From: Halichondria panicea
Taxonomy: Eukaryota > Porifera > Demospongiae > Suberitida > Halichondriidae
Assembly: GCF_963675165.1 (NCBI RefSeq)
Contig: NC_087380.1
Span: forward strand, 6,939,571-7,003,570
DNA length: 64,000 bases
Direction: 5' to 3'
Each line of letters begins with the position of its first letter. Position 1 is the first letter of the stretch. A model generated the notes under the pieces. It was not told the DNA's origin and did not search any database. It saw nothing but the letters and a program-made list of their open reading frames with translations. This document shows, piece by piece, positions 5,905 to 62,685 of the stretch. The translations under genes and the position numbers were made by a program.

Positions 5905-6796
5905 TTAGGGGTGTTTATTCTCTATCTTATAAATTAGGTCTTCCCTCTCCATACTGGGGGCTCTCAAAGCCTCCACCATGACCGACCAGCTCGGAGATCC
6001 CTTCCTGAACCACGCTTCCAGCATTGCAACAAAACACTTCTCCGTGTTATTGTAGTTAGTCTCTCTGATGCTCTGCATAAAGAACGAGGTATAGAAGATT
6101 AGGGTTGATACTAATAGAGAGTGATTAGCTAATTAATGATACTGCATGTAGGTTACAGAACACCCCCCCCCCCCCCCGATATCACAGTCGATAACAACAT
6201 TAATACAGTGGAACGATCGTTGTGAGACACTCGTATACTCTGCACATTAAAAACAAATCAAGTAAATAAATGAGATAACGCAGTTAGTAGCTCATGCAGT
6301 ATAGATACATACAGTGCATCCAGCTTAGAGATTACCCACTATAACAATTTGCTGTTGTTCTATTAATCACCACAAACCCACCATCTTATGTTTCCATGGA
6401 AACATTTTTGAGTATATTGTAGCTTGGTCATTCACCTACACATTGGTATCAACACCATTTCTTACCAATCGAAAGATATTTACATTTAAGTACAGCTACT
6501 CACAAATTTGTGGTAATCTACTCTCTAAGCTGTATGCACTGTAGCATGCATGAAGTCTCCCCATTGTACTATACTGATATACACACTTTATGAGTGAAAT
6601 TTCCCCTGCAAATGGACGACTTTGCGCTCATGCAATAATAGATCTACATATAAGCCAATTTGAACAACACTTACATCAATAGTTCCATTATCTACACCCA
6701 AGTTAGAGGCCAGGAAATCCCACTTTGCACGAGCATCCCAAGTAGCAATTTTGACAGCATAGAAAGTTATGTCACCACCTGTAGCTGTGGGCTCAC
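5905..6796 (-). CDS. C-terminal death domain, two exons (gene 1)
   Basis: The first-half exon 6675-6796 (122 nt, phase 1 to 0, donor GTAAGT) encodes TATGGDITFYAV...ATWDARAKWDFLASNLGV. The second-half terminal exon 5905-6072 encodes CFVAMLEAWFRKGSPSWSVM followed by VEALRAP and ends KIENKHP before TAA. The W..LA..L, ML..W and SW..MVEAL spacing is typical of death domains. The tail differs from genes 2, 3 and 4, which end with IERTFMNTY or a close variant; the last 20 or so residues of gene 1 are divergent. The upstream flank of the terminal exon is AT-rich and contains a run of 14 or more C residues near 6165. Confidence 0.75.
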
Positions 6797-61600: not shown

Positions 61601-62685
61601 TAAGGAATGTGGGTGTTAAGACACGCGGATGTCGTACCTCCTCTGCTACAACATAGTACGTACAAAATTAATTATATTCGTAATATTGGCCATGCTCAAA
61701 GTAATAGCCAGGGTGTCATACAGGAGGGAATCCCACCTCTGGTATTGAAATAACAGTTGACCTCAAAAGCATGCCTTATTTCCCCCATCTACTTCAAAAT
61801 CCTGTATGACACCCTGATAGCGTTTATTTTACTTGCATGCAGTCTGTGCATGCATGTGTATACAGTACCATCATATATCTCCTCGGCAGGACTGCTAGTG
61901 GGATCATCATACTCCACTGTCACACTGACTGTAGACTGGAGGGGGGTAATACATGAGTGCTTGAGATCATGTGACTACAACAGAATTGCATATCATGTAC
62001 GTACGATCAGCGAAATTAAAACAGGTGATGATGAGGGAACATAGTATCAGAGCATAATTTATACTATTATCGGCACGACCAGCTCTAATTGTATACCAAC
62101 ACCATTATGCATGCACTGTGATGAGACAAAATGAATGAATCACCTCCTCCAGTGACTCTCCCTCTTTGTTCTTTAAAGAGAGTGGTGGGGATTGGTATCT
62201 GCCATTTCTGAGAAGACCAAGAGAGATATCCAATGTACCGATAAACCTGTAGACACATAAAAATTGTAGTCTAGACTCATACTACATACTACCAGAAATA
62301 TCAAAAAATCTCACTTCAATCTAGCTCACTTGTTGCCTCTCTTTTGTCGGTACACGTCAAGCTTGAGTGATTGAGTACCGCTGGTCTGCAAGGGTTCCTT
62401 CAGTGGGAACACTAACTCCTGTATTTAAAGAGAACAGTGACAATATCAAATGCAGTACGTAATCTGTTTGACTACAGTAAACCTAAACATGTACACACAT
62501 TATAGTCACACGTAGTACTACGCTATTAAATGCCATTACATCAGTTTTGAGGTTATAAGCTATAGACAATATTCATACATAATTCACACAACTGCTCACC
62601 TCATCCCAGTTCACAGCATGGCCCACTAGCGGTATCTCTGTTCTCACTCGGGATGGTCTCACTGTGGTCGTCTGTCTCTCTTTCC
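55085..62685 (-). CDS. Gene 4: C2-Roc GTPase/COR-Ig-DD, no N-terminal DD (5' end outside)
   Basis: Exons in the window: C2 62600-62685, 62354-62418, 62144-62246 and 61869-61935; GTPase 56276-58857; Ig 55882-56107; C-terminal DD 55495-55616 and 55085-55261. The first C2 exon should lie beyond 64000 because a transposable element starts at about 62884; with the usual 88 nt for it the total is 3516 nt, exactly 1172 codons. The C2 module (phase 1) joins the GTPase exon (phase 1) directly. No DD exon is found between 58857 and 61869, only non-coding remnants near 60345-60440 that normally flank a DD cassette, so the cassette was probably deleted. All visible exons are open, so this copy looks functional. 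Confidence 0.72.
55882..56107 (-). CDS. Ig-like domain exon (gene 4)
   Basis: 226 nt, open: EVKLDEKAVLVALPFADPDD, LSFKWTRKGKKVAGGSDNEL, DHCDGFYTCEVSKNKQFCF. Acceptor TTTTTCTAG, donor GTAAGT. Confidence 0.72.
56276..58857 (-). CDS. Roc-like GTPase/COR exon, intact (gene 4)
   Basis: 2582 nt (860 codons), open throughout, with a strong donor GTACGT. GLSGLGKTT, DIGGQP and GTYQDK are all present. It shares the NLMEHVEQKVKPKATTDKQQ linker type with gene 2 and the short G1-G3 linker with gene 1. The C-terminus (LEGRNPMFRCEHGRVDSLPP) is the most divergent of the four copies. Open frame and conserved motifs indicate selection for function. Confidence 0.8.
59031..59589. mobile_element. Inverted copy of element 46096-46633
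   Basis: Begins TGCCTCGGTGCGCATGCGCA and ends CACCTGCGGTGCTTTC. Contains TGTGTC repeats near 59075-59103. It lies in the intron 5' of the gene 4 GTPase exon. Confidence 0.6.
60195..60321. mobile_element. Short MITE remnant (TACCGTATAG family)
   Basis: Inverted blocks GGCAAAATATTCGTGG and CCACGAATATTTTACCC, with end TACCCGCTATATA. Confidence 0.45.
60623..61076. mobile_element. TIR MITE, CAAGAGTGCATAAG family, copy 2
   Basis: 454 bp, same TIRs and interior as 25281-25741. The uninterrupted site is visible at about 1056-1066 (CTATCTAAAACTTCC), because sequence after 61076 matches 1062 onward. It is in the C2-to-GTPase intron of gene 4. Confidence 0.8.
61328..61645. mobile_element. TIR MITE with 9-bp target duplication
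   Basis: 318 bp with TIRs starting CAGAGGAGGTACGACAT and ending ATGTCGTACCTCCTCTG. It is flanked by CTACAACAT at 61319-61327 and 61646-61654. The empty site with a single CTACAACAT is at 1313-1323 in the paralogous segment. Confidence 0.88.
61869..62685 (-). CDS. C2-like domain, exons 2 to 5 (gene 4)
   Basis: 62600-62685 (KERQTTVRPSRVRTEIPLV-type, GHAVNWDE), 62354-62418 (ELVFPLKEPL, SLKLDV), 62144-62246 (FIGTLDISLGLLRNGRYQ) and 61869-61935 (STVSVTVEYDDPTSSPAEEI). The last exon is the longest of the four copies (67 nt). Exon 1 is displaced or lost beyond the element that starts near 62884. Confidence 0.63.

Follow-up and report, generated by a model that had tools for sequence, protein, structure and literature searches.

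A tandem gene family of the Roco kind with predicted Ig and death domains in the sponge Halichondria panicea

The window analysed here is a stretch of 64,000 nucleotides (nt) of the demosponge Halichondria panicea (contig NC_087380.1, here C4; C4:6,939,571-7,003,570), in which four minus-strand genes and part of a fifth lie head to tail. The array follows the order C2 domain, a variable number of death domains, GTPase exon, immunoglobulin-like (Ig) domain and death domain. Our analysis indicates that the gene family is real and conserved, that it is intact at least in part, and that it is a variant of the Roco kind. An initial annotation of the stretch had combined a Roc-type GTPase with COR, Ig and death domains within a single gene family, of an architecture without a known name; this single family is supported and no named family with this order was found, while the interpretation as a whole stands in part. 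The explanation that we favour, with moderate confidence, is a lineage-expanded Roco family in which a GTP-gated dimer would cluster death domains, and in which frame-neutral death-domain cassettes would be shuffled between copies.

Gene array and the gene 1 model

The array reaches leftward to about position 98, in gene 0, and rightward past the window edge. Its GTPase exons lie at 7450-10025, 28728-31292, 43351-46067 and 56276-58857, all on the minus strand; 3' of each come an Ig exon of 226 nt and the two exons of a terminal death domain. Four sets of C2 exons lie at about 1.5-3.1 k, 24.3-26.2 k, 52.3-53.5 k and 61.9-62.7 k. The four 3' halves and several 5' halves that had been described, all on the minus strand, were found where they had been placed. 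Exons of the array repeat at up to 99% identity. The parts of gene 1, whose splice sites were picked by eye, are as follows.

5905..6072, minus strand: terminal death domain exon 2, with the stop codon (spliced model)
6675..6796, minus strand: terminal death domain exon 1 (spliced model)
6972..7197, minus strand: Ig exon (Pfam Ig_3 E 5.7e-4, below cut-off)
7450..10025, minus strand: GTPase (Roc-like) and COR exon, open
11254..11892, minus strand: cassette 5 (11892-11792, 11461-11254; spliced model)
12676..13390, minus strand: cassette 4 (13390-13290, 12880-12676; Pfam Death 26.4 bits)
13902..19833: 5.9 kb insertion in an intron, with a small gene (99.6% identity to C4:6,139,030-6,144,972)
21525-21425/21062-20855, minus strand: cassette 3 (spliced model)
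22781-22681/22344-22134, minus strand: cassette 2 (spliced model)
24056-23956/23582-23375, minus strand: cassette 1 (Pfam Death 23.2 bits)
24295..26199, minus strand: C2 domain in five exons, with ATG at 26199 (Pfam C2 23.7 bits, cut-off 22)

Joined in silico, the 19 exons give 5,073 nt, or 1,690 amino acids (aa) and a stop, with no internal stop. All 18 introns are of the GT-AG type and the phases are consistent at every junction; since the splice sites were picked by eye, the open 1,690-aa model is a matter of consistency, not proof. The gene 1 model of the initial annotation was confirmed as open and in phase, with its length corrected from 1680 aa. One intron, between cassettes 3 and 4, measures 7,464 nt and the other 17 measure 103 to 1,228 nt.

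Pfam scans of gene 1 took in the C2 domain, cassettes 1 and 4, the GTPase-COR exon, the Ig exon and the terminal death domain. Above the gathering scores were the C2 domain (1/1 scanned) and the death domains (3/3 scanned), the whole terminal death domain reaching 30.7 bits against a cut-off of 22.6.

An upstream cassette consists of two exons, the first of 101 nt and the second of 205-214 nt. All eight complete upstream cassettes (five in gene 1, one in gene 2 and two in gene 3) have matching splice sites and phases. Introns of phase 1 flank each cassette, so that entry and exit are both in phase 1; therefore, gain or loss of a cassette keeps the reading frame, and death domains would be swappable without a frame break. 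No upstream cassette was found in gene 4, one in gene 2, two in gene 3 and five in gene 1, and the variable number of upstream death domains reported earlier is thereby upheld. At a locus beyond the window (L012:135-350, C4:7.024 Mb), the Ig exon and the first terminal death-domain exon are followed on their 3' side by an exon of cassette type; this order suggests that N- and C-terminal cassettes may have been exchanged there.

Assignment of the GTPase and Ig exons

The GTPase-COR exon was compared through three alignments: A1, the family alignment of this exon with 16 rows; A3, six loci drawn from the COR-A match list of the genome; and A4, two LRR-Roc-COR-kinase (LRRK-like) loci of the genome. 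L049, from the Roc list, was left out of A3 on account of its longest frame, 354 aa. A1 aligned with A3 by hhalign over 688 columns (probability P 100, E 4.7e-89), and this alignment is the independent part of the chain from the exon to Roc-COR. All six A3 members match Pfam COR-A (best E 9e-8), which is partly by selection because the loci were chosen from the COR-A match list. A3 in turn aligned with A4 over 323 columns, from DxGGQ through COR (P 92.7, E 4.3e-7). This alignment scored 62.8, whereas none of 40 column shuffles went above 27.2, and reversal gave a P of 0.16; with the COR part alone the score was 38.7 (P 60), and the highest among 40 shuffles was 22.0. Within A1, the G1 motif GxSGxGKTT, the G3 motif DIGGQ and a G4-like GTxxD are conserved (the copy L030 is truncated before G1), and we take them, in part from A3 and A4, to be Roc motifs. 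At E<0.1, Pfam Roc matched 10/16 and COR-A 2/16 of the A1 members. Because the chain from A1 through A3 to A4 holds while direct matches fail, the GTPase exon appears to be a divergent Roco, by descent through A3. The Roc-type GTPase with COR of the initial annotation is accordingly supported by way of intermediate paralogues, and not by direct Pfam Roc and COR-A matches, which stay below cut-off.

Several results weigh against this assignment. The direct Pfam matches (Roc E 0.002-0.07, COR-A E 0.011-0.065) are all below cut-off. When A1 was compared with A4 directly, the P-loop alone aligned (P 8, E 0.004), the COR part of A1 reached a P of 1.1 against the LRRK-like COR of A4, and a joint A1 and A3 profile reached a P of 28. 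In PDB sequence searches, the gene 1 GTPase exon gave no match and A1 gave no relevant chain, its one P-loop match being a septin-like chain (E 0.83). In addition, an AlphaFold model of the GTPase-COR exon, with the window copies as alignment, had a mean confidence score (pLDDT) of 34.1 and was unusable.

A PDB search with A3 matched 29 chains at E values up to 10. Several of these are LRRK1/2 chains, at E 0.13-0.45 and none of them significant; the two top matches (E 0.009) are to a Dictyostelium calcium-uniporter chain. An NCBIfam scan of the gene 1 GTPase exon gave no match. PADLOC models left the gene 1 exon unmatched and gave one weak match in L048 (E 0.0054), and the A1 profile, run on prokaryotic genome contigs and viral contigs, yielded no confirmed relative. 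Five copies on contigs C1, C6 and C15 (L025-L028 and L030) carry repeats of the type S-D-[GS]-T-T-A-S in the linker between G4 and COR, with a length that varies between copies.

For the Ig exon, 13 copies were aligned (A6). They have in common a W and a G[FL]xxC motif with Ig-like spacing; the usual first (B-strand) cysteine is missing in 13/13 copies and the later cysteine is conserved, strand names being given by inspection. Pfam Ig_3 matched 9/13 copies at E<0.05 (best 1.1e-5). The A6 profile matched ten PDB chains at E<1 (best E 0.011), presumably all Ig-like, to judge in part from their names: a tail protein, sidekick proteins, MALT1, CD3 chains, Dscam and NEGR1. The MALT1 chain, 3k0w, lies at E 0.041 and is not significant alone. 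Two results speak against an Ig domain, namely that the first window copy stays under the Pfam cut-off, at the E value listed above, and that an AlphaFold model of the exon had a mean pLDDT of 46.8 and was unusable. By profile, the exon can be recognised as a putative Ig fold.

The genome-wide family and its interpretation

The whole assembly (131.5 Mb, 39 contigs) was searched for relatives. Merging 95 profile-search rows by hand gave 52 GTPase loci, a lower bound. At 48/52 of these, an Ig exon lies within 1.5 kb 3' on the same strand, and the gap between the two is 150 nt at the median. The four loci without a detected Ig exon form one tandem cluster on contig C2 (C2:7,758,110-7,794,826) and are 42-43% identical to gene 1; conversely, 11/59 Ig places have no listed GTPase. 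Since the C2 domain and the three death domains scanned exceed their Pfam cut-offs, exons are up to 99% identical and Ig follows GTPase at nearly all loci, the gene array is more than chance; the array is real, and its first description is confirmed in part. Exons of the C2 domain were found at 12 places, all of them on C4, on the same strand as a GTPase locus and 3.3 to 29 kb 5' of it. Each of the 12 places pairs with a different GTPase locus; some are far from the main cluster, and one is on the plus strand.

The Pfam Death domain is abundant in this genome, with 503 candidates, and all 150 of the candidates that were scored match at E 0.01 or better; Death matches were absent from 14 control genomes. 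The COR-A profile found 60 places, 25 of them above cut-off, and at two loci both Roc and COR-A exceed the cut-off beside what were read by eye as leucine-rich repeats (LRRs) and a kinase. At least 10 of the 60 COR-A places have a Death match within 5 kb 3' on the same strand among the scored candidates (C1 twice, C6, C7, C8, C10, C12 three times and C28). Roc-COR with a nearby predicted death domain is, by these matches, common in this genome.

Five open frames upstream of the C1, C3 and C15 copies of the Ig-bearing clade were scanned. One had no match, and matches in the set comprised ankyrin repeats (L029, L054), a death domain below cut-off (L054) and an SH3 fragment (L056); these frames are not claimed as parts of the same genes. 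A single frame of 992 residues spanning GTPase and Ig in L026 was dropped as proof of fusion because good donor-like and acceptor-like sites are present there, and it looks like a short stop-free intron. An open frame of 2,394 aa at C1:205462 arises from a masked stretch and is artefactual.

GTPase exons are open at 12/15 loci on C4 and C14; the broken ones are those of genes 2 and 3 and of L017, which needs two frames. The 12 open exons (66 pairs, pairwise NG86) have a median nonsynonymous divergence (dN) of 0.071, a synonymous divergence (dS) of 0.186 and a dN/dS of 0.37, with a whole-exon maximum of 0.50. The part from G3 to G4 has the lowest median dN/dS (0.20), and the highest value of any single region, 0.87, was found in the first 120 residues. 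Between gene 1 and the C1, C6 and C15 copies, synonymous sites are saturated. The GTPase exons are under purifying selection; diversifying selection was sought crudely, by pairwise dN/dS.

A mechanism consistent with this organisation can be proposed. The conserved core, as seen in the sequence, is the GTPase-COR exon, the Ig exon directly 3' of it and, in the window copies, the terminal two-exon death domain, preceded in the C4 window copies by zero to five cassettes and usually by C2. Roc would bind GTP and, together with COR, form a nucleotide-controlled dimer. Death domains at both ends could then seed a larger death-domain assembly, which may recruit adaptors, kinases or caspases that carry death domains of a matching type. 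Through C2, the complex would be placed on a membrane, and the Ig domain might bind proteins inside the cell or act in autoinhibition, as in MALT1. Gain, loss or exchange of cassettes would give paralogues of differing valency and partner choice. Innate immunity or regulated cell death is the likely setting, and we reasonably infer a role in one of them. The oligomeric state of MFHAS1 is nucleotide-dependent, and DAPK1, of a Roco group with a death domain, dimerises through Roc (PMC6337361). The adaptor logic of death domains (PMC8195603) underlies the proposal.

A more far-reaching reading, which we hold tentatively as possible, is an immune system equivalent to that of NLRs and built on a Roco GTPase, with a fixed engine of Roc-COR, Ig and death domain, exchangeable N-terminal modules and a valency tuned by cassette shuffling. 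The N-terminal modules would be C2 and cassettes in the C4 clade and possibly ankyrin, SH3 and death domains elsewhere, and a repertoire of threshold-setting scaffolds would replace a repertoire of ligand-binding repeats. Against the favoured reading, no ligand-sensing repeat (LRR, WD40) matched in the scanned gene 1 pieces and two of the four window GTPase exons are broken; both splicing and function are predictions from sequence. The Pfam scans of the gene 1 pieces likewise gave no NACHT or NB-ARC ATPase and no LRRs, the parts of an NLR.

Alternatively, the proteins could be DAPK1-like regulators of cell death or the cytoskeleton that recognise no microbes, their copy number being due to neutral tandem duplication. 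The DAPK1 group, which is confined to animals, likewise has Roc-COR followed by a death domain and no LRR (PMC6337361), and such a C-terminal death domain is present here, at 30.7 bits, with the Ig in between. Selection that is purifying and not diversifying, and three broken GTPase exons among the 15 on C4 and C14, would fit this reading as well. In contrast, DAPK1 has its kinase before Roc-COR (PMC6337361), where C2 and cassettes stand here, and Pfam scans of the gene 1 pieces gave no kinase match. The Ig between COR and death domain, in a family of 52 loci, is a further difference, and cassette variation together with this number of loci is usual in immune families, an argument by analogy. 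We regard this reading as rather unlikely. DAPK1 also carries ankyrin repeats.

The array might also consist of two alternating kinds of gene, C2-death-domain adaptors and GTPase-Ig-death-domain proteins, separately transcribed. The large intron of gene 1 (7.5 kb, between cassettes 3 and 4) does hold another gene on the same strand, which would agree with such a division. However, that intron is mostly the 5.9 kb insertion, without which about 1.5 kb would remain, and it is matched by a segment 0.8 Mb away on C4. The 99.6% identity to this segment indicates that the insertion is young, so it appears recent and is no evidence for two genes. Moreover, phases agree over every gene 1 junction, the C2 exons of gene 4 are in phase with its GTPase exon, and at 12/12 C2-exon places neither the order nor the strand with respect to the GTPase locus changes. 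We rate this division as improbable, given that the gene in between was brought in by a recent insertion.

It is very unlikely that the exon encodes some other P-loop GTPase with an unrelated helical C-terminal half. In favour of such a protein, direct Roc and COR-A matches stay below cut-off, the P-loop alone also matches septin-like and AAA models, and direct profile comparison with the LRRK-like loci fails past the P-loop. However, the order DIGGQ, GTxxD, COR-like is common to the exon and A3, which aligns with the LRR-Roc-COR-kinase loci from G3 through COR (E 4.3e-7) with clean controls. An allorecognition locus, deciding self/non-self fusion in a colonial animal, is hardly credible: a tandem array with Ig, in which some copies are broken and two are young and nearly identical (gene 2 and gene 1, 96.5%), would suit it, but the gene 1 model begins with a C2 exon and has no secretion signal apparent by inspection (no formal test was made), the usual first Ig cysteine is missing throughout and the core is under purifying selection.

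The favoured reading, a lineage-expanded Roco family, may be compared with other described systems. Invertebrate ROCO immune hybrids also join Roc-COR to death, TIR, LRR or kinase domains, among them actiniarian NG1 and NG3 (PMC5094078) and Aplysia ROCO-TIR and MyD88-like proteins (PMC9334734); Ig with Roc-COR and serial cassettes are not among the features described in these sources. Brown algae likewise have an expanded Roco family of candidate immune receptors, with LRR-ROC-COR as the sole arrangement and shuffled in-phase LRR exons of 72 bp and phase 2 (PMC11378527), whereas what varies here is a death domain made of two exons in phase 1, an adaptor module in place of a repeat that binds ligands. 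The TRADD-N expansion of Amphimedon and the sponge NLRs are comparable as large families of sponges that are lineage-specific and combine death-superfamily domains with variable partners (PMC8195603, PMC12909245). Their cores are TRADD-N or NACHT, whereas the scanned pieces here gave no NACHT match; TRADD-N was not specifically searched. We found no combination of Roc-COR with Ig in the open-licence literature, covered mostly at the level of titles and abstracts, which does not establish its absence from print. MALT1 resembles the family in having a death domain and a cytosolic Ig; it differs in its caspase-like domain, of which the Pfam scans of the gene 1 pieces gave no match, and it is not known to have a GTPase.

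Roco GTPases matter in the disease biology of LRRK2 and DAPK1, and the way in which Roc-COR brings about assembly is debated. In the family described here, Roc-COR appears to be linked to Ig and to between one and six death domains, and open paralogues neighbour broken ones; it offers a direct approach to the question of whether Roc-COR triggers death-domain assemblies in general, alongside NACHT proteins. If the favoured reading is true, a sizeable immune-type gene family would be added to an early animal lineage, and adaptor domains, beyond recognition repeats, would be shuffled as frame-neutral cassettes.

Other copies in the array and their surroundings

The remaining features of the window are listed below.

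98..3077, minus strand: gene 0, next copy leftward, C2 exons and first death-domain exon (198-98)
27181..28594, minus strand: gene 2 Ig exon (28594-28369) and terminal death domain (28062-27941, 27357-27181)
28728..31292, minus strand: gene 2 GTPase-COR exon, broken (two stops, two frameshifts)
32526..33202, minus strand: gene 2 cassette (33202-33102, 32733-32526)
34456..35034, minus strand: DED-like exon upstream of gene 2 (Pfam DED E 2.4e-6, 28.1 bits, cut-off 35.9)
42203..43216, minus strand: gene 3 Ig exon (43216-42991) and terminal death domain (42711-42590, 42379-42203)
43351..46067, minus strand: gene 3 GTPase-COR exon (one TAA at 44433-44431)
47095..50815, minus strand: gene 3 cassette (50815-50715, 47308-47095)
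51416..52076, minus strand: gene 3 cassette (52076-51976, 51623-51416)
52260..53537, minus strand: gene 3 C2 exons (bounds of the middle exons approximate)
55085..56107, minus strand: gene 4 Ig exon (56107-55882) and terminal death domain (55616-55495, 55261-55085)
56276..58857, minus strand: gene 4 GTPase-COR exon, open
61869..62685, minus strand: gene 4 C2 exons 2-5

Gene 4 is open across its eight in-window exons, about 1,149 aa, and its C2 exons run in phase into the GTPase exon; a good match to its first C2 exon lies just past the window (C4:7,004,025-7,003,939, L057). The GTPase exon of gene 2 is 96.5% identical to that of gene 1 and contains two in-frame stops (TAA at 30540-30538 and TGA at 29098-29096); compared with gene 1, it has also gained 2 nt near 30170 and lost 1 nt near 28765. 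Of the three models first said to sum to whole codons, those of genes 1 and 4 therefore hold, and that of gene 2 fails on these stops and frameshifts.

An interchangeable DED-DED N-terminus had also been proposed. What was found is one locus, upstream of the broken gene 2, the sole place in the window with a DED N-terminus; a single DED match, below cut-off, lies in the second half of the exon, and the first half has no DED match. An NCBIfam scan of the exon gave no match. Genome-wide, it has one relative at 90% identity (C12:4280815-4281384, L050) and one weak relative on C10. The flanks of L050 resemble the window on both sides: the C12 copy matches window 35025-33629 at 93% and 78%, and upstream of it short pieces of 40127-39476 match at 70-75%. 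Because the C12 copy matches on either side of it, about 4.4 kb beside the DED-like exon (35030-39480) may be an inserted element. This segment contains a long frame with a weak match to a Tf2-1-like SH3 domain (integrase type), and protease-like and PHD-like stretches were noted by eye, on which grounds it is probably a transposable element.

The small gene within the gene 1 insertion is on the strand of gene 1 and has a hydrophobic N-terminus (about 15980-15290). A Pfam scan of its second exon, of 150 aa, gave no match. This exon has a copy of 100% identity at C4:6,143,134, in a local cluster, and five relatives, clustered elsewhere on C4.

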